Below, one piece after another: positions 5,103 through 44,321 of a stretch of 64,000 bases of DNA. The stretch is from Rhexocercosporidium sp. MPI-PUGE-AT-0058. Taxonomy: Eukaryota; Ascomycota; Leotiomycetes; Helotiales. Made by a program: the position numbers and the translations under genes. Position 1 is the stretch's first letter; the number at the start of each line of letters is the position of its first letter. The notes beneath the pieces are model-generated. The model saw only the letters and a list, made by a program, of their open reading frames with translations, did not search any database and was not told the origin of the DNA. Location of the stretch: positions 1,736,001 to 1,800,000 of the forward strand of contig JAGTJL010000003.1 of assembly GCA_020746875.1 (NCBI GenBank), written 5' to 3'.

Positions 5103-7874
5103 CTATTCATTCTTCCCCTCATAAAGTTTAACCAGCGCCGGCTTGAATGCCTCAAACTTCGCAAAGTCCTCGATCCTACACCGCATATAATCAAAAGCCA
5201 CAATAGCAACCTGATCTTTACCCTCCGTCTTCATGACCGGGATCTTCTGGTATCTCTGCGAGAAATGCGTCAGGAGGATACGCCTCGCGTTCATTCTCTC
5301 GCCCACACCCAAGGCTTCTGAGGTGGTGGAATGCTTCTTGGCGATGGCGTCGGATCGGAGCTCGTCGTCGAAGGTAGCTTCGTGGATAAGGAGAGTGGCA
5401 TTCTGACCAATCTCCACGAAGCGTTCTGATGGTCTGCAGTCGCCAGAGTAGGCGACTTTAAAGCCATTGGGGAAGTTGAATGCAACAGCTAGGGCACCGT
5501 GACAGTGCTCCACCCCACAGGCCTTGATAGAAGTCAGACCAACTTTTTGAGTTTGCTCTTCTGAGAACTCATGATAGTAGTGACTAGATCTCTCCATGAC
5601 AATTGGTTGGATTCTTTCGTAGCCAAAATTCTCAACTTCTGAATACTCTTGGAGGAACTTGGTCATACCATCATGAGATGCTACGATCAAGGAATTGTTT
5701 TTAGTCTTCTCGTCTTCTGTGGTCTCTTTGGCCCATTGTTTGATGACTCTGACTGTCCCAAGGTGATGATCTGCATGCAAATGACTGATCCAGATAGCCT
5801 TCAAGTCACGCAAAATCTCTGGTGTTTCGTCACCAAAAACCCGGTTCAGTTGTCCCAGTGTATTCTCTCCGCAGTCAAAGAGGTAGTTGCCATAGCCAGG
5901 AACGCGAAGTAAAGTAGCAGAAACATTTCGGTACTTCGATGGAAGAGCAGACCCAGTACCGAGGGTGATGATCTCGGCATCTTTGCAAGGAATGTCTTTC
6001 TGGGTTTCGTCAAGATGAGCAAGAAACTCGGCACTAGTCACTTCTTTACGAGCAACCTGAGCCAGCTCATTGACTTCGGAAGATGCTTCCTTGATAACAG
6101 TAGCAGTATCAAGGTACTGGATGACTGTCGTGTCCTGTAATTCCACCTTAGGCTCGAGTTGCAATGTATGGCCAATTCTCGCCTTCACATAAGGAAGATT
6201 GTCCACCGGCGCCAGAGGCGGCTCGTTGCAATACTGTGGAATAGGGAAGCGCTCAGCATCGACAAGGTGAAGTCGAATAGCAGCTGCGGCAGGCGATTCC
6301 AAGGCGAGGTAATTGGCACAGCAGTCTTTTGAAGAAACAATATGCTTCATGTTACTCTTCTCTCGCATGAATGCCTGGAGTCTGGAATCTTTAACTACGC
6401 CAGGTCCCAGGATCCAGATAACCGCACCAACACCAGGCATGACATGCTCGGAGGACCACTCAGGACGAGTAATCAACGGACCGACAAACGATGTGTCTGG
6501 CAACTCGATGACTGCAAACCCACCGCCTTCCGAGCCTTGAGCCATAACCATATCAGGTGTCACAACCTTGCCAGTTGAGGTAGTAATACTTTCGCCTCCT
6601 GTCAATTTGCGAAAGTCCGGTCCTGGTGTGACACCAAGCTCCTTGGCCACCTTCGGATTGAACTTCCCTCGTTGTGGGTGGTTCTTAATAAAGTAGCAGA
6701 CAGATGTTGTTGATGGCATTGTTGGCGGTAATGTCTCGATCATTGCTCCTGGCCAAGGATTTCGTACCAATACGTCAATGTTAGGTACACTCGGGTCTTC
6801 CTCCAATGTCAGACCAAGGTATTTCTGAATCTCGCCTTTCTCATTTCTGTAGAAGATCGCAGCTGGTCTTTGGACCTCTGAGAGCTTCTTCTTGACCAGA
6901 GCGTCCAGCCGCCACTCTGATTGGAACATGGCGGACACGACCGATTTCCTCATTTGATCGTATCGGTCCTCTTGTTCCTCTGGAGTTTCCTGCTTGCCGT
7001 CTATTGATGTGGAAGTTCCTTCGCCGGAGAATTCCTCATGACTTCTCTTCCTAGGTCTCGCCACGCTATTCTCAGACTCAACAACCACAGCCCAAAGCTT
7101 GATCTGCTCGTCCTTGAAAGTCGGCTCTATGAGATTCACAGACGCATCTGACTGAGCCCTAAACTCATTCGTGTACAACGGCATTCCCTTTCGAAAGACA
7201 AACCGCCTCGCAGTCGCAAGCAAATGCGTCAGGTTCTTCCCACCATGAACATTCAAGAACTGCTTGTCGACCTGTTCGGCCGTCTCCAACCCCTTCCTCA
7301 CTCTAGCCAGCTCAGCAATCTTCTTCCTCTCCTCCCACGCTACAGTCGCAACATCCGCCAGTGTGAGGATCATGCCCAATATACCTCCCGAGTTCCCCCA
7401 CCCAATAGTCCCCGTCAGGAAGACATCCGCGACCTTTGACAACCCCAATTTCCGCTGGATCGCCGCGCGCTGTGTCCCCTCCGCCACATCGCCAATCAGA
7501 TATCTCTTATTGTCGAAATGTAGAAGCAGCGTCGTCCCCGGCGTATCTGCCGTCGGCGTACTCAGGATCTGAACCCAGGACTTCATCTTGTCGAAATCCC
7601 TCGGGTTCTTCTTGACGAACGGCCTCCAGATCCTACTGACACTGCTGACGCCGTTCTCCTTCTTCTCTTCGAATATGATGTAGTAGCCGCCACGCAGACT
7701 CCGTTGTTTTGCGTATAATTGTGGCCCTGGGAACACTCGATTTGGGGTTGGTTTTTTGCGAGGCCAGCGGCGTGTGGGGGGTCGGGATTCGATGGTGTGG
7801 TGTGCAAACGATCGAACTCCTTTATGCGACTGCGCGGGGAGAGACCTCTTTGCGGGCTGGAGAACAAAAATCAT
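5103..7874 (-). CDS. TRZ1: long-form tRNase Z (ELAC2/Trz1 type), tRNA 3'-end endonuclease
   Basis: A single uninterrupted frame. The enzyme removes 3' trailers from nuclear and mitochondrial pre-tRNAs before CCA addition. The C-terminal metallo-beta-lactamase half carries the histidine motif HLHADHHLG (DNA 5763-5783, about residue 698), the GTGSALPSKYRN loop with its PxKxRN signature, a HEAT motif (IHEATFDDE) and the later zinc-site His. The N-terminal half (from MKSWVQIL) is the degenerate lactamase fold typical of long forms. The frame is open up to an ATG at 7964, but I place the start at 7874 (923 aa). The sequence from there is basic, Ser-rich and nearly acid-free, like a mitochondrial presequence. 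An internal Met at 7586 gives 827 aa, close to the 838 of yeast Trz1. A basic PRKRSHEE stretch could be a nuclear signal. Confidence 0.94.
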   Translation of the reverse strand: MIFVLQPAKRSLPAQSHKGVRSFAHHTIESRPPTRRWPRKKPTPNRVFPGPQLYAKQRSLRGGYYIIFEEKKENGVSSVSRIWRPFVKKNPRDFDKMKSWVQILSTPTADTPGTTLLLHFDNKRYLIGDVAEGTQRAAIQRKLGLSKVADVFLTGTIGWGNSGGILGMILTLADVATVAWEERKKIAELARVRKGLETAEQVDKQFLNVHGGKNLTHLLATARRFVFRKGMPLYTNEFRAQSDASVNLIEPTFKDEQIKLWAVVVESENSVARPRKRSHEEFSGEGTSTSIDGKQETPEEQEDRYDQMRKSVVSAMFQSEWRLDALVKKKLSEVQRPAAIFYRNEKGEIQKYLGLTLEEDPSVPNIDVLVRNPWPGAMIETLPPTMPSTTSVCYFIKNHPQRGKFNPKVAKELGVTPGPDFRKLTGGESITTSTGKVVTPDMVMAQGSEGGGFAVIELPDTSFVGPLITRPEWSSEHVMPGVGAVIWILGPGVVKDSRLQAFMREKSNMKHIVSSKDCCANYLALESPAAAAIRLHLVDAERFPIPQYCNEPPLAPVDNLPYVKARIGHTLQLEPKVELQDTTVIQYLDTATVIKEASSEVNELAQVARKEVTSAEFLAHLDETQKDIPCKDAEIITLGTGSALPSKYRNVSATLLRVPGYGNYLFDCGENTLGQLNRVFGDETPEILRDLKAIWISHLHADHHLGTVRVIKQWAKETTEDEKTKNNSLIVASHDGMTKFLQEYSEVENFGYERIQPIVMERSSHYYHEFSEEQTQKVGLTSIKACGVEHCHGALAVAFNFPNGFKVAYSGDCRPSERFVEIGQNATLLIHEATFDDELRSDAIAKKHSTTSEALGVGERMNARRILLTHFSQRYQKIPVMKTEGKDQVAIVAFDYMRCRIEDFAKFEAFKPALVKLYEGKNE

Positions 7875-9046
7875 GGAGGTGCACTTCGATTTCCATGACT
7901 CTTCGCCGGTATTTCGTACCTGCAGTTCAGAATTATGGCGGCGCCTTGCAGTGCCAAGACTCAAGCGAATATGCAGCCTCGTTCGAGTCTGTCCAATCCA
8001 ATGTCACCACGGCCTCGAGGGATCTTTAATTCTACAGATGCTTGTCCACATTTTTTGTATTGAAGGGTTCTTGCAACTTCTTCACGAGTAGCATAATTGA
8101 TTTGGAAGAACAGTGACTAACTTGACCTACGCTACGAATATATGCCTTTCACGCAGATTTCATCAATGGTTCTGGAGTCGGTAGGCTGGTTCTTCTATGC
8201 ATGAAACGATATTAAAATGAGCATAAAGGCATGCTTGGGCGTGAGACTCTGCAGAAAAAGTTAAAAGGATTCAAATGTCTTAACTCGTGCTTCTTTTCCA
8301 GTCTAGTGTTTTCAGTCTAGTGTTTTGACTCAAATAGATATCCCTTCATCTTATTAGCAATATACAGAACATCGTCTGTCTCCCTGGCCGAAACATTTGA
8401 AGCAACAAGAGTCAGTCCATGATCATCAACCCGTGCCACCTCAAGTGACCATTAAGAACAACAGCAGCTCTTCACGATATTTGAGAAGTCTGACCTAAAG
8501 TGATTGGCCATAGATATCTCAAAAGCACTTCTGGGGCACTTGATGATAGAATGCCGTTCCACCTCACAGAATATTCCTATAGCATTCGAGTTGTACCTCC
8601 ATACCTCGATAGATCCTAGTCAGTCATCTCTAATACAGCAGACTCATGAACTCACACCGGTAGACCGCTGTCACGTCACCGAAGCCTAGTGATCCTTTCA
8701 AGAGCGGAGAAATCATCAAAGTAGTCCTATCAACACTCATCCACTTTGCAATTATAAAAATCAGGCTTTCCGTGAATTTTTCTACATCGGACCCGAGAAC
8801 AACTCTCGGGAATTTTTTGGTCCTCGCGGCTCGAAAAAGAAGCACAACGTCTAGAAAGCAATTCCAGAAGCAAAAATGTTGTGACAGAACACCTTGTCCT
8901 ACTCGGAACAAATTATCACTCCATCCATGCGTGCCTTGAACCAACAAAGTCGACCGATCCAAGTGCGTAAAATATTGAAGTTGCTCCATCCCCTACCCCA
9001 TACCAAGACGCCGTCGTTCATGCATTATGTAATCTTCTTTGCTCCT
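7875..9046. other. intergenic, no supported gene
   Basis: Upstream region of tRNase Z and 3' flank of the LAMMER kinase gene; both genes are on the minus strand. A direct repeat of CAGTCTAGTGTTTT occurs twice in tandem near 8300-8328. No ORF here resembles a known protein. Confidence 0.55.
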
Positions 9047-11376
9047 TCACCGGTAGCCATTAATTCGTGGAGGTGCTGCTGCTGCTTGACTAGCGGCAGC
9101 GAGTGCTTGTGCTTGTCGGTTGGCCCGGATCTTTGCGGCTTCTGTGCCATCATCGGGTGTTGCTGCCTCCTTGAACCAAGGGTGTTGAAGAGCTTGCTTA
9201 GCGGTGATACGTTCTGCTGGATCGTATACAAAGATCTTCTCGAGAAGATCCAAGAAGTTTCTACAGAATTTGTTGCTATCGGGAATGATTTCCTAAGTCA
9301 TGATTAGCCCTGATGACCTGGTAAAGAGTTACTCCAAGAGACTCACATTGAGATGCTTCATAGCCTTCACGAATCGCCTCGAAGCCCTAGTGGTCTCGGG
9401 CTGCGGGTAGTCAAGCTTTAATCGCTTGAAGAACCTGTCCAGCAGTCAGAATTAAGGATCAGCTAGAGTATTGATAGTACTTACTTTGCAGCTGGGTTCC
9501 CTCCGTTTCTTTTTGCCATCGTATTAACGGCCTGCACGAGGTGGTTGTCCAACTTCTTGTTGCAGACGCTCTCCATCATAGCCAGGTGTTCCAGATTGTC
9601 GTGTGTTTGGAATAGAGCATCTCCTGTGAAGAATTCGACTAGAATGCACCCAATGCTCCAGATGTCACAGGGAAATGACCACCCTAGACCAAGAATGATC
9701 TCGGGAGCCCGATAGTGGCGAGTTGAGACAACCGACGAGTGGTACTCGTCCTGGAACGTAGCGGAGCCAAAGTCGATGAGACGAATCTCTGTGTCGAGAA
9801 GTACTTTGCGTTGTGCGGCTTGGCGATTGACTGTGGTCGAGGAGGATGGGATCTTGCGGCTGTATGTGAAAGCCTGGTACGCACTGTCACACAGGAGGAT
9901 GTTTTCTGGCTTTAGATCCGTGTGTATTAAGTTGAGATCGTGTAAGACTGGAACCCAGTTAGCATTGAATATGGCAAAGTCTCCCTAGAATACTTACAAG
10001 CAACACTAGTAAAGAGCTGTCTCGCAAAGCTCTGAATTTGACTGTTCGGGAATGGGACGAACGAGTTGCCCTTCAGGAAATCAAACACACTCTGGCCCAG
10101 TAAATCCATGACAATGCAGATATGTCCTCGGTAATCGAAACAGTCTCTCAGATGTATGCATCGGTTTCGATTTTCTTTGTCGTTCGCCTTCAAGGTTGCA
10201 AGAACCCGCAGTTCGATTCTTGAGGCATCCCGGTACTTCTGTACCGATCGGATGATCTTGATAGCAACTGCCCTCTTGCTTTGTCGGTCTCTAGCTTGAA
10301 CAACTTTACCGAACGTTCCCTGTCCAAGCAGCTTCGAGACTTGGTCTGCAGCTAGTCAGCATAGATTCCTCCAAAACGGGGTATATTCACGTACATCTTT
10401 CAGTGAGATCTGACTCTGGAACAACGATGTAATGACCATCGTCATCATCGACCTTGGTGTTTTTGGTGTACGAGTTCTAGACATTGTCAGTTTGTCCTGG
10501 TAGGCTCTTAGGTTGGATACTCACATCGGAAACCTGCTTAACCTGAACGTCAGGGGCCTTGATAGGTGGCTTTGGTGGAGGCTTGTAGTTTGTGTATGCA
10601 TCGCCATTAACCTCCAACTCCTTTCTCTTTGCTTCATTGGTGGTCTGCAACCGGGTCGTCTGCCTCTTCCTCTTTGTGCCAGCCTGTGCGGCTACCTCGT
10701 ATCCATTTTGCCCATTTGAAGAGTGTGAGCCCAGGGACGTCGCTGCTGTGGTGTGAATAGCGGAAGTGGTTCTGTCGGTGGAGGCAGACCCTGTAGAATC
10801 TTTGTATTCAGGGCTGACATTGTTTGAATATGACGGCTCAAGGTGATAGACAGGATCATATGGTGTTCCGACGTCATCGCATCTCCTCTTCTTCGCCGCG
10901 TGTCTGTTACTCCCCGCAGCAACAGATCGACCTGTCTGGGCATTTGACATGACAGAAGCAGAGGGTTCTGGGGTTGGAGAGTCATCTATGACAATCACCT
11001 CACTGGGGAGGCCATTCTCATAGAATTTTTTCCAATCGGGATTTCTCGGTTCTCTTGATCTTGGTCTCTTCTTGGGGTTTTGCTTTGAGGCTGCAGAAGT
11101 GGAAGACGAGGCAGGCATCTCTGCGGGATGCGTTTCGAGTCTTGATGGCTGTGTTGTGTTTTGACTTGGTCGTGAGGGGTCGGGTACACCGACACTGTTC
11201 GACGATGTGCCGCCGTTACTCGAGGGAGTCGGGAAGGTGTATGACGCTCCCAACCGGCTGCCGCCGTTCAAGAGGGAGTTGTTGGGCGCTCGATAGCCGT
11301 TGTTGGATTGGTAATTCTGATGGTGAGAATATCCGTAGTTGTGATGGTGAGGAGGCAGGGTCGAAGGTGTCGACAT
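9047..11376 (-). CDS. LAMMER/CLK dual-specificity protein kinase (Kns1/Lkh1 type)
   Basis: Six exons (11376-10525, 10476-10395, 10345-9998, 9947-9485, 9434-9347, 9292-9047) with introns of 48-54 bp; all phases agree, giving 692 aa. Residues 1-284 are low-complexity (Asn/Ser/Pro/His) with basic patches (KKRPRSR, AKKRR, TKRKR) likely to act in nuclear import. The kinase domain follows: GQGTFGKVV loop, AIKII lysine, HTDLKPEN catalytic loop, DFGSA, and the RHYRAPE activation segment. The family-defining block reads EHLAMMESV (9565-9591), so the Arg of LAMMER is Ser. The C-terminal subdomain HPWFKEA ends the fold and is followed by an Ala/Gln tail. Family members phosphorylate SR-type splicing factors and affect stress and growth responses; the substrate here is not known. 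Confidence 0.95.
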
Positions 11377-13901: not shown

Positions 13902-15106
13902 TCATATGCCTCTGTTAAAAACAACCTTTCCATGCTCCCCTCCCTTACCCCAAAACTCCTCTTCCAAGCTGGAAGCATCCACGGCCTGTCTCTGTGGGAA
14001 AGCCGCAAGAGCTAGCGGCAAAGCGAACAGACTGGTAGCGAAAATCAGACCAACATTGACAGGCATAGTAAGTCTCGGGTTCTTCTTCAGCCAATCTTGC
14101 TTCTGGAGTCTGACGAGGACCAAAGGAGGGATGACCATAATCGGGGAGCTGTTCAGGACTCTACTGAGAGCAGTCTCGGAGACTGCAAGAGTAGCAGCCT
14201 TCTTGCTCTTTCCGAGAGAAGCAACCGCGGATTCAGACTTTCCTTCCTCGGCCAATTTGGCCTTGTCTGACTCGGAGAGAACAGGATAGATATCAATTCC
14301 TTGTCTGATTTCCTCTCCGCGCATCAGGAACACGTTCAGAGCACCAGCACTTGCCACTGCGGCGAAGGGAACCAGTCTTGTGAGGATCGTCTTCGTAGCT
14401 GGGCTGACTCGCTTTAGTCGCGGAACGAGGGCATTCAGACCAAGAGCCACTGAGCAAGAAGCACCAACTGCTAGGAAGTATGATTGTGCGATCTTCGAGG
14501 TAGAAAGAGGGGTGGATTTGTTGGCGTTGGCATTGTTAATGGCGACGTTGAGAGATTGGTTGGTTATTTGCCAGAGGAGAGTTCCGGTCATCTGCCACCA
14601 GTTAGCAACTACAACCAAATTACAGAAGACAAAACTCACTCCAAGTCCAGGTGTGAGCATTCCAGCCGTGACCACCAAATTGGACAGGACGAAGCATGAC
14701 ATTCGGAAGGGTAGGAAGACTGGTTCCCCCGTATCTGTAACAGTCAACATCTGCAGCCCAGCCCAATGCAACCCAGCAGCACCTACCCGGATGTAATGTC
14801 GAATCCACAATCTTCTTCGCCTTCCATAGCTCCTCGTTCATCTCATTTATCTTCCCCTGCTTGTACCCAGCGACCAAGTTCTTCGCATGCTCGAGACCAG
14901 CTTTGTTGACCAGAAGAGTTCTGCCAAAGGTCAGTATGGCCCAAATGAAGCAGCCCTTGACAATTGTAACACCTTCAACGAAATAAACCACGCCCTCCTC
15001 ACCTCGGATCTGAAATATTTGCTGAATGGCGAACGCGCCCCCAGTAGGTGCTCAGGTCATATTGCGAGGCGGGGAGCTCTCGACCACCTGGGAGAGACGC
15101 CGACAT
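13902..15106 (-). CDS. FSF1: sideroflexin (mitochondrial inner-membrane carrier, Fsf1 type)
   Basis: Four exons (15106-15003, 14920-14787, 14734-14640, 14591-13902), introns 82, 52 and 48 bp, 340 aa, the normal family length. The N terminus MSASLPGGREL...YWGRVRHSANISDPRTLL, the block LHPGDTGEPVFLPFRMS and NWWQMTGTLLWQITNQS are diagnostic of sideroflexins. Several hydrophobic segments follow, and the C terminus carries SPIMVIPPLVLVRLQ and a polar tail. Mammalian sideroflexin-1 carries serine into mitochondria for one-carbon metabolism; the exact substrate in fungi is inferred. There is no cleavable presequence, as usual in the family. The start ATG is the one that yields the conserved first exon, and the GTGAGG donor lies directly after DPR. 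Confidence 0.95.
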
Positions 15107-15602
15107 TGCGATCGAGGGCTTGCAGATGGGAGCTTCGCAGACACAGATGCTCTCTTGAATGCGAAGTCAATTGACACCGTTCGTCCCGCAACTCAACTAC
15201 GTGGATGGCTGGGACGTGGCGGTGAAGAAAGATGTTTGGTTGGCAAGCATTGGTGGTGTTTTCGGACACAGCTCCCACGAAATAAAGTCCGATCTCGCTT
15301 GTACCTTGCTTGCAGGGATCTTTAGGTCTCCCCGATTTCAGTGGGCCTGATGAGTTGTTTTAAAATCTTGAGTGGCAGAGAAACCTCCCCGTAACAACAA
15401 CAAACCGTGACTCCTTACCAACAATTATTCGACCTTGTATCACTTCAAATGTGCCAAAGTCGTTGTGAAAGCTGGCCCTAGCTCGGCAAAATCATGTACC
15501 GAGACCAGTAGCACTTCCTTCCTCTTATGGTGACACAACACTGTTGTTGCTATGTAATGAAATAAGCACCATATTGCAAAGAACCAGTGACTTCTGACTT
15601 CG
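15107..15602. other. upstream region of sideroflexin and tRNA 5' flank
   Basis: No gene seen. It holds the sideroflexin promoter (minus strand) and the 5' flank of the tRNA-Arg gene. Confidence 0.55.
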
Positions 15603-15753
15603 GGCCCAGTGGCCTAATGGTTAAGGCGCTAGATTTCGGAGCTTTCAGAAGCAAAAATCTCTAGAGATGTAAGTATATTCTACTGTCCAAACCCATCGAA
15701 AATAAGTTCTAATGCGAAGTTTCATAGTGGGAGTTCGAATCTTCCCTGGGTCG
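15603..15753 (+). tRNA. tRNA-Arg(UCG) interrupted by two introns
   Basis: Removing 15640-15658 (19 nt) and 15669-15727 (59 nt) leaves 73 nt that fold as a complete cloverleaf. The acceptor stem is GGCCCAG/CTGGGTC with one G-T pair. The D stem is GCCT/AGGC, the anticodon stem CTAGA/TCTAG, and the T stem GGGAG/CTTCC with loop TTCGAAT; the discriminator is G. The anticodon TCG is at 15636-15638. The first intron sits after position 37, as in ordinary nuclear tRNA introns, and contains a small GCTT/AAGC hairpin. The second splits the variable loop (AGAT|T) and has the form of a spliceosomal intron: GTAAGT donor, CTAAT with branch A about 15 nt from the end, and terminal CATAG. A-box (TGGCCTAATGG) and B-box-like (AGTTCGAATCT) sequences are present. 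The gene could be functional or a recently interrupted pseudogene. Confidence 0.85.
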
Positions 15754-15790: not shown

Positions 15791-15794
15791 TTTT
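15791..15794 (+). terminator. possible RNA polymerase III terminator of the tRNA gene
   Basis: The first TTTT after the tRNA 3' end, 38 nt downstream; a second T4 run follows at about 15802-15805. An imperfect inverted repeat (AATGAAGC...GCTTCATT) lies between the tRNA and the T run. Confidence 0.4.
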
Positions 15795-17277
15795 GAATCT
15801 CTTTTGAAATTAAGAACTAGGCTATTCTGGATAACTTAACTTGTTAGCTTTGGGTGTTGGTATTGACGAAATCCGAATGACAGAAGTAAGCGAGGGGTTG
15901 ATACCCCGCTTTTAGGGACTGCCTTGATTTTGTAGATCTGATGTGATGATTGCTACTCGACTTGAGCACTAGATTGCGGAAGATGGACAAAAGGCTGGGC
16001 TACAATTCGACACCTTTGGATTACCTTTTTTGGTAACATTTCATACCTCCTTTGTCCGATATATGCCCCGACGTCTCGATTGACAGCGATGAAGCCTTGT
16101 TTGGCAGCTACTAACGAGCACTCCCGGCGAAGCCTCTTGGTTATCTTGTCTTCCCTCCAACAAACAATCACTGCCCAGTTGTCTTTTGCCTTTTGCCACA
16201 GACTGCTAGCCAACGTGGTGATGAGCCAATATATTCCCATTTTGTGTTCTATAAGTAATCGAACGGCTTATACACAGCCATAATGATATCGCGAAAAGGA
16301 CCGGACTGCAAAGGCTCACTCCAAAACATGTTGACGATCATCACGTCTGGAACAACACGAGGGAGAGTGTACTTTAACGACTACCTCAAGTCATTGTTTT
16401 CGGAGCTTAGCGGTAGCACATTCATCAGTCAGATCGGTAATGGTGAAGTCAAAGATGTATTTCGGAAGAAGGTAGCCTTCATTATGAATCCAATCTTAGC
16501 ATTTACGTTGGACCGATATATTGTGCTTCAAAGCAGGCCAAGAGGAACTCTTTGGTCTAAAACTTTGTTGAGGTTGCAGGTATTAGATGGGATCTGGTAT
16601 CAATGCAAGAAACGCACGTGGGGAATATCTTGTTCTATCGATGAATAGATGAAAAGAACTTTGCTGTGTTGACATTCAGCAGGTAAGCGAAGCCAGCACT
16701 ACGATTACCTAGGGTCTGTTTGCTTCACTTTCAGAGATGAAAGAGCCAACCGGAGGGTGGTGAGTTAACAAGGTTTTCAAAGAGCGTTATCTTAGTCCGT
16801 GCCCTTCTCTTTTGCTTGTCGGGGTTTCTGGTGCATCCTTTACATTCACATCATCGGGTCAAATTATTGAGGATTTACAGCGATGGAGCCCTGTAATTTG
16901 GCGGTAAAGCCCGAAAATTTAGCGAGCAAAGCCTAGAAGGAAGCCCCTGCGTGTCTCGCCTCCACCAGGTAAATCGACTTAGCGATAGTGGATGGCAAAA
17001 TCGAATTCTCTGTATTTCGCTTTTGATCTTAACGAAAATCCAATTTGATATGTGTTTAAAGTAAAAAATTCTTTTGTATTGCGATACGTTTGAATTTGCT
17101 ACAGCTCAAGCTCACTGCTGGTCCGGTGATGACGTTTTGCCAAGAAATGAAGCCTCTCAAGGGAAGCGACTCCTTTTCACTCCACTCTCATCACACCCTT
17201 GAACTCAAACCAGTAAACATACCGAGAAGGCTTGTGATGCAGCTTGACGGATTTTGAAATTTGGTTTCTTTCTAGCG
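15795..17277. other. intergenic, no supported gene
   Basis: Contains one 121-codon plus-strand ORF (16283-16648) with no recognisable domain and poor coding character, and otherwise the upstream region of the SET-domain gene. A TTTCTTTCTAG directly before the SET ATG could be the 3' end of a 5'-UTR intron. Confidence 0.5.
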
Positions 17278-19672: not shown

Positions 19673-21944
19673 CTAACGAGGCTGACTTCCAGCTCTCTGT
19701 CTTGGTACTCCTGTCTTCCTCTCACTAAATCTACGCTCCAGTCCATAGTCGCCTGCTGTCGACGACCCAGGAAGCTTAGGAGCACCACCGAGACTCACAA
19801 GAACAACTTTGTTGTTCGCCGTCAAATCATCCATGATCTCCAGCTCCTTGACCGTGAACCATCTAGGCATTGTCTTCCAGCGGAACGGGATGAGAATGCA
19901 GACCAGCACCGGGAATCCTAGAAGAACCTGTCAGCTCTTGCTATATTTTGCTTGAACGAAAAGATTGACAGAAATATGAGGCTTACCAATAGCGGCGATG
20001 GTTTGTGAGATTGCAACCGGAAGTATAACACCTACTATCTGGCAGAGAAGATATAACCATATCTTCCTCCTTCGAACCTTCAAAAGGGGTTCGCCTCGAT
20101 GTAAGAAGCGACGCTCGCTCATCAGAAAGAGTAATTTCTTCGTGATGCCATTGCTCTCGATCGACCCCCACTACATCAAACCGACATTAGAATATATTTC
20201 AACAAGAACGGAACAGGATGGCAAGATTACTCACCCCGACAACGAAGAAGACTCCACAAAAGATCGCTCGGGGCATGGTATGCAGCACGATCAAGAGAGG
20301 TCTAGTCATCGTCCCTATGATGCCTAGACCCATGAGGAAATGCGAGACTCGCTGCTCGACTACCCCTGATGCTCGGACGATGGGACGGCGGATCTCGTTT
20401 CCTTCGCCTTCCTCGGTTGCAATTACTTGTAGGTCGGTTTCATAGACTGTGAGGGAATCGGTATGAACAGGTGCCTGGGATATGAATTTTAGTGGTGACC
20501 GAGCAGATGTATTGTATGGGATTTGGTTACCTGTGGAACCAAACCATTCGGTAATGGCATGCCAATTACCCCTGAAATAAACGTAGTGCAGCCGAGCAGG
20601 AAAAAGTCCCAGTGGAATCCGCCCGGTTTCTTGAGTGGATATTGTTTCGCCTGCGCTGTCAAGCTGCTGACATTCTGTTGCATGCATGAGTTCATGTTTC
20701 TTGCATATCCGAGAGGGAAGCCTGGATATCGAGAACTCACATGATCGTAGTAAAAGAGAAGCATGACCAAGAACCCAAAAGGCATAGCTACAAATATCCA
20801 TTTCACATCGAGAGTCCAGAAGTCGATCAACCAACTTCGGGGCTGTGTTGGATAGAAAGCACGACTGATGGGCAGAGTGCTAATATTCGCTGTCTTGATT
20901 GTACCTGGGATATGAGAAAAGCCAACCCAGAAGATGGTCGCGATCTGTGAGTACTGTCAGCTTGTGGTTACTCAGGAGAGAAGATCATTGAAAAATTACA
21001 GGATATGCATAATCGGCCAGAAGTCCTCGAGCCCATGGCTTCGCAAGCACTCCGCGGCCAATCTTCTCCAGGCTGTACACGGTCCCAAAGTACAGAATTG
21101 CAATCACACAGCTCAGATACCCATCCACGCTCCCATAAGAGTCGAACAAGCTAACCAGCTCTTCCACTCCCTTGACTATTCGAATCTCAGCACCAAATCC
21201 TTCACCTGGGAAGAGAATCTTACTCATATAAATAATCCCAACATACATCCCAAACGTCTCACTTGAGAAATCCGTTACATAGCGCATGTAATCGCACAAA
21301 TTCCACACCGCAACCAGCCAATGCCAGATCGCCGCCCAAATGGCCGTCCATGCCATGAAGCGAGCGTACAGTGTGACATCGTACATCTTGATGATATCGT
21401 AGATGGTGTAGTTGAAGAGGGATATCAGTCCAGTGATACCTACGATTGTCAAGGGCTGGGCACTGATAGTGCTGAATACCATGGCTGCTAGAGCCGATGC
21501 GAAGAGTGATTCGTTGACACTGTAGAATCCTCCTGTTCGATGTTGCATGTCTAGTGTGTATGCTAGAGCTGGAAGCAGGCTTTGAAATTTTCAGTCTGAC
21601 GTTCCATTCGTTTGAGGAGGGAGAACTCACTTGACAAAATACATGCGAAAAGTGCTTGCAAAAGTACGGTATGTGAAGGCGTCCGTGATATCGCTCCAGT
21701 AGTACGGAAGACGACGACGGACGTCAAAATACATTCCCCGACATGGCCGCAAGACTCGAAATCTCCTCCATCCTGACAAGCCGTCGAATGTGTAATCTGA
21801 GGTCTTCGATGTCGAAGCTGTTGCATCCTTTCGAACTGGCACCGGTTGATCTTTTTCGGTGGTAGATTCCATCATTGGGTTATTGGGAGTCCCAGATGCT
21901 CCACCAGGGACATCTGCAGTTGAAGATGCGTCTGACCTCTGCAT
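19673..21944 (-). CDS. BOR1: BOR1-type borate efflux / anion exchanger (HCO3- transporter family)
   Basis: Seven exons (21944-21631, 21579-21000, 20944-20741, 20674-20531, 20474-20235, 20170-19987, 19917-19673), introns 51-69 bp, 636 aa with all phases consistent. Diagnostic stretches are RPCRGMYFDVRRRLPYYWSD, FVNLLPALAYTLDM, QPLTIVGITGLISLFNYTIYD, KKPGGFHWDFFLLGC and LPNGLVPQAPVHTDSL, the last typical of SLC4/BOR1 proteins. Multiple membrane helices are evident. Yeast Bor1 exports borate at the plasma membrane and affects vacuolar protein sorting; a substrate other than borate cannot be excluded. A cytoplasmic N terminus of about 70 residues is Ser/Thr/Pro-rich, and the C-terminal tail is basic. 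The start Met at 21944 was chosen over an upstream Met at 21983 because the extra 13 residues are hydrophobic and not family-like. Confidence 0.95.
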
Positions 21945-28218: not shown

Positions 28219-30699
28219 CCAACTTTGGGCATGTGAAGGGACACTTGGGTGATTTGCTCAGCATGGATGGTTGGCGATTGATGCGAGGGCATGCTGGATA
28301 AATGTCTACTATGGCTTCTGAGACTCTTGCTTTGCGACGTTGTGATGTGTAGGTGGACAACATCAGGAATTTCTGCAGGGACGAAGCGAATGGCGCATTT
28401 GAAGAGTAGCTTCATGACGGAGTCTACGATGGCTTACTTCCATTTTGGAGAAATGGATACCCTTCAACACTGCATTAAAGATTCCACTACAAGAATGTAA
28501 TGTTGATGTTCACAGTGGTGCAGTGACGAAATGTGCGAATTCTGTTCCATTCGTCCTTCACAGAAGGAGAATGATAGCAATCTAACACCCACAGTATCCT
28601 TATCCTCCTACAAGAGCCAAACCTAAACGATGTCTCGAGGTCTACCTACCGCGCAACCCTCAACTCCGATCAGAAGGCCAGTATTTCATCTCTCTTCCAT
28701 TCCTTTCCTTTTAGGGAAAAAAAAAGGAGAGAACATCCTCGATGTATATATTCATGTCCCAACAGACAAATTGCGAAGGTCCACCTACGTAAGAAAATAA
28801 AAGGAGGTTCCGCACTCAAAGGTCGTTGGGGGAGGGTTTGCTCTAGTCTAATAAACGGCACGAATGCAGTGAATCCAGCTCAAGACTAGTCGTGGGGAGA
28901 TGACTAGCCGAGCGAGGCAGAAGACGTTGTTGTTGATATTTGATGAAACAACAGTAGATAATAGTAAATTCGATAACATGGGGAAAGACAAGTTGCCCCT
29001 TGGCTGATCAGGGGGAAAAAATCTTGGCTCTAGACAGATGTTTCCCCAAGGCGGATATCGGCAAGAGCCAAGAGTCTTTGACTCAAATTTCTTCAGCCTT
29101 GTGCGACTGAACATTTGAAAATAGAATGGATGGATGGTCAAAGGGTGACCAAGGCCGTTGGCTTCGCTTTGCTGATCGTTCACTGGAACACACAAGCGCT
29201 GGGCCAACTCATCGATTACCTTGGTAATGCTGCTTGCGCTTGCTCGTGTTTTGCGTACAGAGAGCTACGTTGTTCGGATGCACAGCTTGTGCTTTGGGGC
29301 TTATCCCGATAGGTTTTCGTATTCGGCGGTACGAGTGAATACGAGCAGATGATGGCGATCCTAAAAAAAATGATGCATGTTGATGTTTGTCGTGGCACAT
29401 GAAAGGGATGCTGTTGTATGTGCTTGCTGAAAGGTGAACAAACAAGGAGGTTGAAATTTCATTTTCTGCGACTGCAATATCTTTAGCGCCGGGGTCTGGC
29501 AGAGGAACATGCCGACGTCCACTCGTCTTTTGAGCCAATCAGATGAGATATTCATTCAGACAGAGTCGTTCGGTCCCGGGGTTGCGGATTTGTTACTCTG
29601 AATTATTATTCAAGGTTGTTGCTTTTGGCAGGTGGACACACGACCGTCAAGGATAAGATCAAGGTAAGATTGCGGGAGACGTGGCTTCATATCGCGGTAG
29701 ATTTGAGCAGACGGATTAGGACGGTAGAGAAAGCTTAGATCAGATGGGAAGGAAAGAAAAGGAGGAAACTCCTTCCATCATACTCCGTAGAGTTTCAATC
29801 CAGTCTGTGTGTGTGGGACATCAGGTAGCGGAAAGACATGTCTAGCACAGCGGGATGGCCCTTGTTGGTGGCTGAACTGTTGACTGCATCCAATACATCG
29901 CCTTTGCTCATGAGGCTAAATGGATGCTTGCTATTGGCTAGGCTCGTCTCCAAGATACAGAAGTCCATGTGTCCATGTTATGCTGAAAGGCCATCTTCAT
30001 CTCACGCATAGAATAGTATAGTTAGTACGTGATATTAACAGGGGTGAGGTTGTACAAATATGTGTGTTAGATTTGGACGTCGTCATCGTCTCTTGTGGCT
30101 TTGTTCAGTAGATCCGAGCCAGCGGCAGCGGCAGTGGATCAAAGTGCACGGCATGAGATACATGGGCTGTACTGTAGATGTGGATGTGGCGTTCCGTCTT
30201 GATCCAAACCCATCCACCAATCCACCCTCCGCCCAGGCCAAAAATCACCAAACCAAAGCCAGCCCAGCAATCAATCAACTCCTCATGCAGCCAAACCTGC
30301 CAAGATCTCTCGCAGCCCACTACTGATCCCAAGAAGGAACAATCCTCCACCCACCACCAGACCAGATCAGATCAGATCTGCGAGCGAGGCACGCGAGCAC
30401 TTACCTACCTACCTACCTACCTACCCACCACATACAGTACAGTCCGCCGACATGGCTTCCTTCCTTCCTTCCTCGATCGATTCTAGCTGGAGCCTCGTCT
30501 TGCCTTCCCTCTTTTCCTCCTCTCCTCACTCTTCACTCTCTCTAGATCCAAACCTACCTCCCAATTCCTCGAACCCAGCCTTGCCTTCCCGTCTCTGATC
30601 CTACCAGCCTTCACGGATCCAATCAACCATACCGACACTGTCTAGGCCGGCGGGGACATTCAAATGAGGATATCCTGAGGATCTATGGTGTGAAGTGCA
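28219..30699. other. 2.5 kb intergenic region
   Basis: 3' flank of the BTB gene and long upstream region of the CAS1-type gene. It has AT-rich and pyrimidine-rich tracts, an A9 run near 28720, a (TACC)n repeat at 30402-30426 and a TACAGTACAGT motif at 30433-30443. ORFs up to 119 codons show no family resemblance. Confidence 0.55.
30402..30426. repeat. (TACC)n microsatellite
   Basis: About six tandem TACC units 275 bp upstream of the CAS1-type start codon. The complementary repeat (GGTA)n occurs again at 58141-58162. Confidence 0.85.
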
Positions 30700-40439: not shown

Positions 40440-40505
40440 TTCTGATCTCTTTACCTACACGGAGATAGTTCGTTACTTATTCGAAGCCTTCACGAAACAA
40501 TTACG

Positions 40506-43500
40506 ATGGCTGGAAACAAGAAGAAGACAGCTTCAGCGGCAAAGGGGACACCACGATCACCTTCACCTCACTCCATCGATCAACCATCGAACACCCTTCG
40601 AAATGACCCTGAAGATGGTTCGCCCACGCGCAGCGAACAATTCCAGCGCTCTGACGGAGGTTTAGAGGATCTCACAGATGACGACGAAGGGGGCTCGGAT
40701 GCCGAAGCAGCTATCGAGGCTGAGCGACGACGAATTCTAGAGATTCAAACACAGATTAAGAGGAAGAAGGAGGAGAAGGCAGTTCGGAACCGAATCGAAG
40801 AGCTGGAGGAGGTAGTGCGAGAGCGAGAGGATTTAGAGAGAGAGTTGGCGGATATACTGCGAAGAGAACAAGAAGAGGAGGAAAGCAGAGAATATATAGA
40901 TGGAGGAAAGCGTCGACGCGCGAACACGGCCGGGGACCGCCATCGTGACGAACCCACGGGACTTCCTCGAAATGACTTCGATATGCGCCCGATGTCGCAT
41001 CGACGAATCCCAAAGATGCGAGAGCTTCCGACATATAAGGGCAAGAGCGCTGAAGAGGCTCAGTCTTTTATCCGAGGTGCTGAGCGGAGGTTCCGTCAAG
41101 ACAAAGGGACAATATATGCTACGGATGAAGACAAGATCAACGAGTGCGTTCTTGCTTTCGACGAGAAGGTAGAACGGAAGTGGACCGGGTTCGAATCGAG
41201 GGCTGGGACAAACTCACTCACTTGGGAAGGGTTTAAGCAGTGGATGCTAGACTCAATTATGGACCCTGGAAATCGAGAGCTTGCGGTGCTCAATCGGTAT
41301 GAGAACGCTCAACAGCGCGAGAACGAGTCGGTGGATGATTTCGTGTCTTTTCTTGATGGCTTAGAGCAACAACTGAAGATCGGAGACGATACGGCGAGAC
41401 GACGGACCCCTTTGCCCTTGATTAGTGAAACCCTCGATCGGTTGAGACGTGCTAAAGTGTTTACAAAGCTAGACCTGAAGGATGCGTATCACCGGCTCCG
41501 AATCAAGCAAGGCGACGAATGGAAGACGGCATTTCGGACCCGATACGGACACTTTGAGTATTGCGTGCTTCCTTTTGGACTCTCGAATGCTCCAGCGACA
41601 TTTCAAGCTTATATTAACCAAGCCTTAATTGGGCTAGTAGACGTCACTTGTGTAGTCTACTTAGACGATATCCTTATCTTCTCTGAGAGCATCGAAGACC
41701 ATACGGAAGCTGTTCGGGAGGTCCTCGAAAGGCTTCGCACTCATAATCTCTACGCTAACCTCAAGAAATGCGCATTCGACACTGATACTGTGGAGTTTCT
41801 AGGGTTCGTAGTAGGCCCGACAGGTATCCGAATGGACCCCTCCCGAGTCGAGAGTATCCAGAAGTGGCCTTTACCTAAGTCGTGGCGAGATATACAAGTA
41901 TTCTTAGGGTTTACTAACTTTTACCGCCGTTTCATCCGCAGTTATGCAAAGGTTACTCAACCTATTACTGATTTATTGAAAGGAATGCAAAGAGGAAGGA
42001 AGACGGAGCCATTTCGATTCCCTCGCGCAGCTACTACAGCGTTCTTAATCTTACGGGAGAGATTCTCTCAAGCTCCGATCCTTCGCCATTTCGACCCTCA
42101 ACTAAAGATTCGGGTAGAAACAGATGCTTCGAAATTCGCTATTGGTGGAATCTTATCTCAATTATTCGGCAGCGGTACGGAGGCTCGATGGCATCCTATC
42201 GCATTCTACTCGAAGAAGCTCTCTCCTACTGAGCAACGGTATGAAGTTCATGACGGGGAGCTAATGGCAATAGTGCATGCATTTAAGCAATGGAGTCAAT
42301 ACCTCCGAGGCGCTTCCGATGTTATTACGGTCCGAACAGATCATCACAATCTCAAATACTTTATGACGAAACGGAGGCTTACCGGACGGCAAGCGAGGTG
42401 GGCCGATGAACTAGCTGAATTCGATTTTGTTATTGAATATCGGACTGGGGCTACAAATCCTGCTGATGGGCCTTCGCGAAGACCTGACCTCAGAGACTCG
42501 GAACCTAGTCGGAGTGAAAACGAAGAAGAGGAGCAGTTACCGACGTTGCATCGGAAGCTACGCTTAGCTGCGATGTTGCAGAAGAGAAGGCCTCTGTTGA
42601 TGGCATTTCTAAAGTCGGGACTTAGACAACCCCGCACCGATGAGTTATCGGAGCCAGATCAAGGATCGTCCATGAAGGATTCATGGGGCAGCGAAGAGCA
42701 ATCGGAAGGGGTACGAGGGACCCCCGACGGGTCTATTGCTGGTGTTACTGGTTGCAAACAGTACATACCACGGCGAGTAGCAGTTATGCTGTTACAAACC
42801 GAAACAGCAGGCAGCGAACCTTCGGAACCGATTCAAAGCATAATCCTTGATTTACAGAAGGCAGATCCTTTTGTAATGAATAGGACGTACGAATCGATTC
42901 CGAGGGGACGTCGAGCTGGGTCCGAAGGACACTGGAAGATGTGCGAAGATGGACTGTTACGATATCGTGGCAGGACTTATGTGCCACCTGAGAAGTCACT
43001 TCGGAGTGAGATCTTAAGTGTTAATCACGATGATGCCGTGGCAGGACACTTCGGGTTCCGAAGAACCTTCGAATTGCTTTCGAGGAAATACTTTTGGCAA
43101 GGATTACGTACAGACGTTAAGAAGTATGTGAGCACTTGCGCAGAGTGTCAAAGAGGGAAACCAAGAAGGCACCGACCTTACGGCGAGTTAGCCCCGTTCC
43201 CTGTTCCTTCAAAACCTTGGGAAGAGATAACTATGGATTTCATTACAGACTTACCGCCGAGTAAAAGAGTAGGTCGAGTGTACGATTCTATTCTCGTAAT
43301 CGTCGATCGATTTACGAAGTTGGTTCGGTATATCCCCGTGACGAAGACGATTACTGCACCCGAGCTAGCCGAGCTTTTTATACAACATGTATATAAGGAC
43401 TTTGGATGCCCTAAGGGTATTACCACCGACAGAGGCTCTGTCTTTACAAGCAAGTTCTGGTCTTCAGTAATGTTCTACCTTCAGGTTCGACGCCGACTTA

Positions 43501-44321
43501 GCACCGCATTTCATCCGCAAACCGATGGGCAAACCGAACGGCAAAACCAAGTCTTGGAATTCTATTTGAGGACATATTGTGATTACCGCCAAGATGATTG
43601 GGCCTCTAAGCTAGCCTTAGCGGAATTCACATATAATAATTCGGTGCATGCATCTACTGGTTCGACACCTTTTCGGATGCTATACGGGTTTAACCCGGAG
43701 CTTGGTTCGAACGTCGAGGACGACGTCCAAGAAGGAGGGGCACCTGCTGCAGTTGAGAGAGTGAGACTTTTACAGCAGGAAAGAGAAGTACTTACGGAGA
43801 AGCTTCGAATTGCTTCCGAATCCCATAAGAAGTTCTATGATGCTAAACACAAAAAGACTAGGTTTCAAGTCGGAGACATGGTTTTGCTAGCTACGAAGCA
43901 CCTTCGACAGTTGAGGCCTTCTCGGAAGCTTGCTGACAAATTTCTAGGGCCTTTTAAGGTCAAGAGAGTTGTTTATAGCCACGGTCAAGCATATCAGCTC
44001 GAACTGCCCCCGACTTACCGCATTCACGATACTTTTCATGTATCACTTTTAGAACCGTGGCAAGGACGAAAGGGAGTCGAAGCCAGACCGGAGGCAATTC
44101 AAGTACAAGAGCAAGAAGAGTTCGAGGTTAAGTCTATTCAAGCTCATAAGGATACGAGGCGAGGCCGCCTGTATTTAGTCCGTTGGAAGGGTTACTCTGC
44201 TGCAGATGATACTTGGGAGCCTATAAGTCATCTTACACACGCTAAAGATGCGTTACAAGAATACTTGAGAGATATACCAGGAGAAGGGAAATCGGAATCA
44301 CGACGGAGGTTGCGAAGATGA
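40506..44321 (+). CDS. retrotransposon Gag-Pol polyprotein with internal in-frame deletion
   Basis: 1271 aa in one frame. Residues 1-150 are charged coiled-coil. A Gag capsid-like region (LPTYKGKSAEEAQSFIRGAERRF to LKIGDD) ends at about residue 297 and passes straight into RT (TPLPLISETLDRL, then YLDD at 385-388). The CCHC knuckle, the aspartic protease and the first RT blocks, normally several hundred residues, are missing without loss of frame. RNase H (VETDASKFAIGGILSQ), the integrase zinc finger (H-H...CAECQRGK, about 840-890), a DDE core (TMDFITDLPPSK, TTDRGSVFTS, HPQTDGQTERQNQ) and a C-terminal chromodomain (YLVRWKGYSAADDTWEP, about 1205-1255) are complete. A polyprotein like this could not self-process, and RT activity is unlikely. 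The start codon lies 66 nt after the 5' LTR. Confidence 0.93.
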   Translation: MAGNKKKTASAAKGTPRSPSPHSIDQPSNTLRNDPEDGSPTRSEQFQRSDGGLEDLTDDDEGGSDAEAAIEAERRRILEIQTQIKRKKEEKAVRNRIEELEEVVREREDLERELADILRREQEEEESREYIDGGKRRRANTAGDRHRDEPTGLPRNDFDMRPMSHRRIPKMRELPTYKGKSAEEAQSFIRGAERRFRQDKGTIYATDEDKINECVLAFDEKVERKWTGFESRAGTNSLTWEGFKQWMLDSIMDPGNRELAVLNRYENAQQRENESVDDFVSFLDGLEQQLKIGDDTARRRTPLPLISETLDRLRRAKVFTKLDLKDAYHRLRIKQGDEWKTAFRTRYGHFEYCVLPFGLSNAPATFQAYINQALIGLVDVTCVVYLDDILIFSESIEDHTEAVREVLERLRTHNLYANLKKCAFDTDTVEFLGFVVGPTGIRMDPSRVESIQKWPLPKSWRDIQVFLGFTNFYRRFIRSYAKVTQPITDLLKGMQRGRKTEPFRFPRAATTAFLILRERFSQAPILRHFDPQLKIRVETDASKFAIGGILSQLFGSGTEARWHPIAFYSKKLSPTEQRYEVHDGELMAIVHAFKQWSQYLRGASDVITVRTDHHNLKYFMTKRRLTGRQARWADELAEFDFVIEYRTGATNPADGPSRRPDLRDSEPSRSENEEEEQLPTLHRKLRLAAMLQKRRPLLMAFLKSGLRQPRTDELSEPDQGSSMKDSWGSEEQSEGVRGTPDGSIAGVTGCKQYIPRRVAVMLLQTETAGSEPSEPIQSIILDLQKADPFVMNRTYESIPRGRRAGSEGHWKMCEDGLLRYRGRTYVPPEKSLRSEILSVNHDDAVAGHFGFRRTFELLSRKYFWQGLRTDVKKYVSTCAECQRGKPRRHRPYGELAPFPVPSKPWEEITMDFITDLPPSKRVGRVYDSILVIVDRFTKLVRYIPVTKTITAPELAELFIQHVYKDFGCPKGITTDRGSVFTSKFWSSVMFYLQVRRRLSTAFHPQTDGQTERQNQVLEFYLRTYCDYRQDDWASKLALAEFTYNNSVHASTGSTPFRMLYGFNPELGSNVEDDVQEGGAPAAVERVRLLQQEREVLTEKLRIASESHKKFYDAKHKKTRFQVGDMVLLATKHLRQLRPSRKLADKFLGPFKVKRVVYSHGQAYQLELPPTYRIHDTFHVSLLEPWQGRKGVEARPEAIQVQEQEEFEVKSIQAHKDTRRGRLYLVRWKGYSAADDTWEPISHLTHAKDALQEYLRDIPGEGKSESRRRLRR

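Follow-up and report, generated by a model that had tools for sequence, protein, structure and literature searches.

Introduction

Introns of eukaryotic tRNA genes are treated as one class, located between nucleotides 37 and 38 (37/38) and removed by a dedicated endonuclease. Outside tRNA genes, Bhattacharya et al. reportedly described in 2000 spliceosomal introns in the nuclear rDNA of ascomycetes (lichen fungi). The rRNA genes are transcribed by RNA polymerase I (Pol I). The U6 snRNA genes of Schizosaccharomyces pombe and other fungi carry GT-AG introns with a branch site in a noncoding gene transcribed by Pol III, and the U6 intron is thought, in excerpts of one report (PMC10484740), to derive from reverse splicing near the catalytic nucleotides. 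According to passages of a second report (PMC4090602), archaea, Cyanidioschyzon merolae and nucleomorphs have non-canonical tRNA introns, which in eukaryotic genomes are presumed to be uncommon, and excerpts of a third describe disrupted tRNA genes mediated by a bulge-helix-bulge (BHB) in archaea and algae (PMC3978253). Passages of the tRNAscan-SE 2.0 paper limit eukaryotic tRNA genes to one intron and provide non-canonical intron detection for archaeal candidates (PMC8450103).

Here we analyze a tRNA-Arg(UCG) gene in the window (the whole 64,000-nt stretch of DNA under analysis), with a tRNA census set in the context of the window's 62.7-Mb, 60-contig genome. The inserts found in this and other tRNA genes resemble the introns of U6 in combining GT-AG borders and a branch site in a Pol III noncoding gene; U6, however, sits in the core of the spliceosome, whereas tRNAs have no such place and many different tRNA genes are affected here. 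Like the lichen-fungus rDNA introns they are of spliceosomal type and lie in structural noncoding RNA genes of ascomycetes, but those introns interrupt rRNA rather than tRNA genes. The tRNA introns of Crenarchaeota, C. merolae and nucleomorphs, as presented in the passages cited above, likewise occupy the acceptor stem, D arm and V region, several per gene; those introns are BHB-type or very short, whereas the present inserts have GT-AG borders and branch signals, with no strict BHB in 8/8 tested. From canonical introns at 37/38 they differ in position, size, signals and presumably in the machine that removes them. The intron type is thus a known one and the class of gene is new as far as our literature search reached: no report of spliceosomal introns in nuclear tRNA genes appeared among the literature matches listed (titles and abstract openings; few subscription papers, no bioRxiv).

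Results

The interrupted tRNA-Arg(UCG) gene

A first-pass annotation of the window had proposed a tRNA-Arg(UCG) gene with a 19-nt intron, a further 59-nt insert at 15669-15727 and an exact 73-nt cloverleaf; both coordinates and description proved correct in the Rfam search and the excision test (Table 1). The Rfam tRNA match spans exactly the gene (43.1 bits) and contains two insertions, the long one in the V region. The three exons total 73 nt with no mismatch in any stem (acceptor GGCCCAG/CTGGGTC, anticodon CTAGA/TCTAG, T GGGAG/CTTCC; V loop AGATT), the A and B boxes are intact, and GAAATAAGCA is found at -41. Within the 19-nt intron, the A third from its end can pair with the T at nt 32. 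The GTAAGT start, the ATAG end and the CTAAT with its A about 15 nt before the end are present in the 59-nt insert as described, and its proposed likeness to the protein-gene introns of the window holds in size (59 nt vs 48–82 nt) and in signals.

The locus was searched exhaustively: among 3465 single excisions of 40–109 nt, the best cloverleaf score was 53, shared by 11 excisions that were all 59 or 60 nt long and all in the V region. GT..AG borders occur in 1/11, and it is this excision alone that gives the V loop AGATT, which is invariant in six CGN tRNA-Arg paralogs (three ACG and three insert-free UCG; four distinct sequences). The spliced tRNA-Arg is identical to the insert-free tRNA-Arg(UCG) gene L017 in only 53/73 aligned columns and thus represents a separate tRNA-Arg lineage, not a recent copy. 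Neither the spliced tRNA-Arg nor the 59-nt insert had a close copy outside its own locus in a genome search, which used a word-based method that missed known Arg paralogs. ARAGORN with default settings gave no match in the window, and the unspliced RNA folds in no unusual way (z -0.45).

Table 1. Features of the interrupted tRNA-Arg(UCG) locus and its neighbors (window coordinates), and insert positions in the other insert-bearing tRNA genes
Feature	Position	Strand	Basis or remark
LAMMER-type kinase gene, 5 aligned introns (reference)	9050..11376	-	86% identity to Rhynchosporium graminicola protein; spliced alignment
Sideroflexin (FSF1) gene, 3 aligned introns (reference)	13905..15106	-	93% identity to Cadophora protein, 89% of query; spliced alignment
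Upstream element AAATAAG	15560..15566	+	common to tRNA genes of the genome; ATAAG at -41
tRNA-Arg(UCG) exon 1, nt 1-37	15603..15639	+	Rfam 43.1 bits, cloverleaf scan; anticodon TCG
A box TGGCCTAATGG of tRNA-Arg(UCG) exon 1	15610-15620	+	Rfam, cloverleaf scan
Canonical tRNA intron, 19 nt, after nt 37, SEN endonuclease type	15640..15658	+	position 37/38
tRNA exon 2: nt 38, anticodon-stem 3' strand TCTAG, V-loop AGAT	15659..15668	+	sequence, excision test
Spliceosomal-type intron, 59 nt, V loop (47/48), GTAAGT...CTAAT...ATAG	15669..15727	+	excision restores AGATT
Branch-site-like CTAAT, A at 15712, 15 nt from intron end	15709..15713	+	sequence
tRNA exon 3: last V-loop nt, T arm (B box), acceptor 3' strand, discriminator G	15728..15753	+	Rfam alignment, cloverleaf
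First TTTT downstream, weak Pol III terminator candidate	15791..15794	+	37 nt downstream
Second TTTT downstream, weak Pol III terminator candidate	15802-15805	+	48 nt downstream
HCO3- (boron) transporter gene, 5 aligned introns (reference)	20235..21944	-	86% identity to R. graminicola protein; spliced alignment
Ile(AAU) L038			insert after nt 5
Ile(AAU) L048			insert after nt 6
Ile(AAU) L200			insert after nt 6; also 20-nt canonical intron
Pro(CGG) L102			inserts after nt 5 and in V loop
Glu(UUC) L073			insert after nt 6
Ser(GCU) L202			inserts after nt 7 and in anticodon stem
Leu(CAA) L122			insert after nt 9
His(GUG) L118 and L177			insert after nt 12 (12/13) in both
Thr(AGU) L146			insert after nt 16
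Leu(UAG) L069 and Leu(CAG) L128			insert after nt 19 in both

The proteins encoded around the locus are closest to those of Cadophora, Leptodontidium, Rhynchosporium, Oculimacula and other Helotiales. For the LAMMER-type kinase and the HCO3- transporter, identities refer to queries that were concatenated exon translations made in this analysis. The R. graminicola locus tags WAI453_001105, 001107 and 001108 suggest conserved synteny. The window also contains an snR36 H/ACA snoRNA (28752-28927, minus strand; Rfam 66.8 bits), a tRNase Z gene (5103-8003, minus strand; Pfam Lactamase_B_4, 966-codon open frame), whose product happens to act in tRNA processing too, and a chromodomain LTR-retrotransposon-like polyprotein in one open frame (40446-44321, plus strand; RVT_1, RNase H, integrase zinc-binding and chromo domains).

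Census of insert-bearing tRNA genes

Inserts of the GTAAGT...TAG type had been proposed for a search in other tRNA genes, and that search extended the single case to at least 13 tRNA genes with 15 GT-AG inserts outside 37/38 (Arg, three Ile, two His, three Leu, Glu, Thr, Ser and Pro), two of the genes having two inserts. The inserts sit at 5/6 to 7/8 of the acceptor stem, in the D arm, in the anticodon stem or in the V loop, and none at 37/38. An additional intron at 37/38 is present in 10/13 of these genes (the Arg gene of the window and 9/12 others); the Ser and Pro genes, with two inserts and an intron at 37/38, therefore have three introns each.

These genes were recovered with a cloverleaf scorer that allowed a canonical intron plus one or two GT..AG excisions, applied to loci fetched via T-arm patterns; the first cloverleaf scan used no excision, and an insert lying within the T arm, or within the 3' strand of the acceptor stem, would escape the scan. 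All 123 loci with GGTTCGANTCC were fetched and scanned. A CTAAY..YAG..T-arm pattern gave 47 matches (backward control 70), of which 30 were cut as loci; these yielded L102 and, once more, the Arg gene of the window (as L115) and the Glu gene L073 (contained in L092). With the Ile T-arm pattern 6/7 matches were scanned (C15:477777 was left out), and in another fetch 10/20 places were read. The genome profile search with RF00005 scored 63/2658 candidates, so that the tRNA census is incomplete, and genes for Asn, Tyr, Phe, Ala(AGC) and Lys(UUU) are among those not located in this incomplete set of 47 Rfam matches plus 19 others. Measured against these 66 tRNA genes, the 13 insert-bearing genes make up roughly one in five, a share that is indicative only, the census being incomplete and partly targeted.

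Several candidates were not counted. The Gln locus L086 was set aside since GT..AG excision fails to restore a good D loop, and L042, L178, L139, L143 and L059, which are long or odd tRNA-like loci, were left unclassified. By eye, L143 and L139 have long inverted repeats downstream (e.g. AGCGACCAGGCAGTCGCTAGTC...GACTAGCGGCGACC). Also excluded was L201, a decayed tRNA-Ile copy (66/74) that the pseudogene test identifies as such. L201 (G000:C18:167780-168130) lies about 8.5 kb from the intact L200 and still holds a GTAAGT...CTAAT...GTAG insert after nt 6.

Splice signals and controls

The strongest control is internal, as the tRNA-Ile genes L038, L048 and L200 have an empty-site counterpart in the insert-free L010. 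Cut at GT..AG, L038 and L048 are identical to L010 at 74/74 positions (tRNA-Ile(AAU)), and L200 is as well (74/74) after removal of its insert and its 20-nt canonical intron. The insert-free L010 could represent either the ancestral state or loss of the insert.

GT and AG were imposed by the scan, and other dinucleotide pairs served as the control. Excision at GT..AG gave 11 matches (10 distinct genes) at a score of at least 44, compared with 0–5 for 50 random donor/acceptor pairs, a comparison run on L009-L196 less three duplicates of the window locus. Most matches from random pairs came from these genes again, excised at different positions, together with L042, L086 and L178. When no filter on the branch site was used, 10 inserts were recovered; of these, 9 contain CTRAY (shuffled mean 0.75, maximum 4 in 5000) and all 10 have G at +5 (shuffled mean 1.2, maximum 5). 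The set is not fully independent, as two of its members, the His inserts, look homologous. Acceptance of L202 and L102 did involve a branch-site filter (L102 having been fetched via the CTAAY pattern), and both are left out of the unselected 10. Across all 15 inserts, CTRAY occurs in 14/15, with its A 8–20 nt before the 3' end, and +5G in 15/15, in keeping with a GTRNGT-like 5' splice site; the one insert lacking CTRAY is L122, which has TTAAC.

Insert lengths range from 50 to 89 nt (median 55, n=15), as against 48–82 nt (median 51) for the 13 protein-gene introns of the window, which were placed by spliced protein alignment and have CTRAY at this distance in 8/13 and +5G in 11/13. The tRNA inserts are thus better marked by CTRAY than these reference introns, whose alignment placement may err in places. 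An introner-like mobile intron was considered and rejected: BLAST among the 15 inserts gave three 10-nt matches only, and the word-based genome search returned no other copy of the 59-nt insert. The two His inserts are identical in 43/63 aligned columns (shuffled mean 56 percent) and their exons agree; they look homologous and are probably one old intron.

The restored cloverleaves are free of stem mismatches in 9/13 genes and have one in the other 4/13 (both His genes in the anticodon stem, Thr at 50:64 and Pro at 6:67). ARAGORN called a tRNA in all 13 spliced forms, with the assigned anticodon in 9/13 but not in L069, L128, L200 and L202. From the unspliced forms it returned nothing in 8/13, a wrong anticodon in 4/13 and, in 1/13 (L038), an Ile with a broken acceptor stem.

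Upstream elements and terminators

ATAAG is found between -75 and -25 in 27/46 tRNA genes called by ARAGORN (shuffled mean 3.7), and AAATAAG upstream of tRNA genes is probably a TATA-like Pol III element. The exact ATAAG precedes 9/13 insert-bearing genes. The form ATA[AG][GC], which was picked after the variants ATAAC, ATAGG and ATAGC had been seen, precedes 13/13 at -30 to -44 (shuffled mean 1.9, maximum 8).

In 11/13 insert-bearing genes a run of at least four T follows no more than 40 nt past the 3' end, the exceptions being both tRNA-His genes, which have no T run within 49–50 nt downstream; for L118 the first run is at 62 nt. Some ordinary tRNA genes likewise have TTTT runs only (e.g. 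L014, L021, L033, L052), and in some (the first gene of L019, and L016) the first T run is about as distant as at the Arg locus of the window. Two shared downstream sequences were seen along the way. About 40 nt downstream of both tRNA-His genes are nearly identical (TATGTCTGGATTGAAAGTT.AGATGGTTTAA.TCCATCAAG) and without a T run; this stretch may represent another RNA or an atypical terminator. Five tRNA-Lys(CUU) copies (L025, L026, L029, L031, L034) have in common a downstream CCCGAGGTT...GAGCTTC-like sequence.

Introns in a U6 snRNA gene

A U6 snRNA gene of the same genome (L198; G000:C1:767328-767482, plus strand) contains two GTAAGT...CTAAC...CAG introns of 50 and 49 nt, with the borders TTTGGT|GTAAGT...CTAAC...CCAG|CAATTTG and AGCATGGC|GTAAGT...CTAAC...ACAG|CCCTGCAC. 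Removal of both leaves an ordinary U6 core; as interrupted, the gene scores 39.8 bits in Rfam, under the cut-off of 44. A second U6-like gene (L197) is intronless and scores 66.1 bits, and a 3' fragment (L199) scores 31 bits. With L198, introns of this kind would extend to another class of Pol III genes in this genome, the use of Pol III being presumed from the class of gene.

Insert-free gene copies

Insert-free genes exist for Arg(UCG) (L017, L018, L022), Ile(AAU), Leu(CAA) and Ser(GCU). The first-pass annotation had called for a genome check for other tRNA-Arg(UCG) genes; with three insert-free genes found, the gene of the window may be dispensable. No insert-free tRNA-His was found genome-wide with a 29-nt probe in which the D arm is joined to the anticodon region, at up to 3 mismatches, and the probe matches only the two insert-bearing genes, via their 3' exons. 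Nor were insert-free genes for Glu(UUC), Thr(AGU), Leu(CAG) or Leu(UAG) found in the 123 GGTTCGANTCC loci or the 47 Rfam matches; copies with another T arm could be missed.

Discussion

Judged by their sequence, the inserts are almost certainly introns of spliceosomal type. We infer that they are spliced, that the spliceosome does this, and in what order the steps follow. The 59-nt insert of the tRNA-Arg gene is very probably a U2-type spliceosomal intron within a tRNA gene transcribed by Pol III, and would be spliced out before other processing. Counting this one, the genome has at least 15 such introns in at least 13 tRNA genes. A spliceosomal-type intron in a Pol III gene, as first proposed from this one locus, is the best reading, given 13 genes, 15 inserts and signals above those of shuffled sequences.

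Among the alternatives, the one that survives best, very unlikely as it is, holds that the inserts mark dead copies, i.e. unexpressed tRNA pseudogenes. It can draw on the insert-free genes for four of the tRNAs, on the visible decay of the insert-bearing Ile copy L201, and on passages of PMC4090602 in which eukaryotic insertions are mostly in one of many synonymous genes, supposed pseudogenes. The exons, however, are intact or, in three Ile genes, the same as the insert-free copy (74/74); an ATAAG-like upstream element is present in 13/13 and exact in 9/13; both tRNA-His genes carry the insert; and insert-free tRNA-His, Glu(UUC), Thr(AGU), Leu(CAG) and Leu(UAG) were not found in the loci searched. 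The dead copy, one of three options offered by the first-pass annotation, is therefore disfavored in general.

Its second option was Pol II transcription, in which the tRNA genes would lie inside longer Pol II transcripts, the introns being spliced there and the tRNA cut out later. Spliceosomal introns normally leave Pol II transcripts, and the tRNA-His genes without a near T run would fit as well. We nevertheless regard this as highly unlikely, because the ATAAG-like element of ordinary tRNA genes is present in all 13 at -30 to -44, T runs of at least 4 follow within 40 nt in 11/13, and the Arg and sideroflexin genes are divergent, the tRNA starting some 500 bp upstream of the latter. What remains of the three options is spliceosome access to pre-tRNA, which presumably applies.

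That the tRNA-splicing endonuclease removes the inserts, as in tRNA genes of Crenarchaeota, red algae and nucleomorphs, with GT..AG coincidental, is extremely unlikely, even though non-canonical tRNA introns with other removal routes occur in archaea, C. merolae and nucleomorphs (excerpts of PMC4090602 and PMC3978253). A strict BHB at fixed offsets was absent in 8/8 inserts of the final set tested (8 of 15), where the central helix has 1–3 of 4 pairs, the mirror form at most 3 of 4 and the inner helix 0–1 of 3; moreover, the spliceosomal signals are far above shuffles, while GT..AG occurs in 0/40 introns at 37/38.

There is almost no chance that the Arg gene instead has a single long intron (67 nt after nt 37, with a 16-nt variable arm), which is the best reading without excision and resembles the fold ARAGORN gives the unspliced gene (Ser, 65-nt intron, 17-nt V), since it scores 45 vs 53, mispairs the outer anticodon-stem pair, puts a class-II-length arm on a class-I tRNA-Arg, makes the TCTAG plus AGATT match to six paralogs an accident and accounts for none of the other 12 genes. 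A better cloverleaf with one intron, named at the outset as an outcome that would overturn it, was thus not obtained, and the spliceosomal reading stands.

On the spliceosomal reading, Pol III would transcribe the tRNA-Arg gene from the upstream AAATAAG and the internal boxes, and the spliceosome in the nucleus would recognize GTAAGT, CTAAT and ATAG, the intron leaving as a lariat. The spliced precursor would then fold as a cloverleaf, be trimmed at both ends and be exported, after which the tRNA endonuclease would cut out the 37/38 intron. Elsewhere in the set an insert interrupts either the acceptor stem or the D arm (in Ile, Glu, Pro, Ser, His, Thr and Leu genes), so that spliceosomal removal should precede RNase P, tRNase Z and the endonuclease. 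If this is correct, one tRNA gene can need two splicing machines in sequence and may have up to three introns, two spliceosomal and one of the endonuclease type.

Since the tRNAscan-SE 2.0 paper, in the passages cited above, limits eukaryotic tRNA genes to one intron, tRNA genes with such inserts could be missed or misnamed in fungal annotations. The genome offers natural test material in tRNA-Ile genes that have the same mature sequence with or without the intron, and in tRNA-His genes that should fail if unspliced; the gain or loss of introns in noncoding genes could also be dated there. Provided that the introns are spliced, short Pol III transcripts other than U6 are routine substrates of the spliceosome, and tRNA supply depends on it. 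It is likely that in this lineage of fungi the spliceosome is an obligatory enzyme of tRNA maturation, with tRNA-His, and probably Glu(UUC), Thr(AGU), Leu(CAG) and Leu(UAG), coming only from genes with spliceosomal introns. With those tRNAs encoded only by intron-bearing genes, no protein would be made without the splicing of Pol III transcripts.
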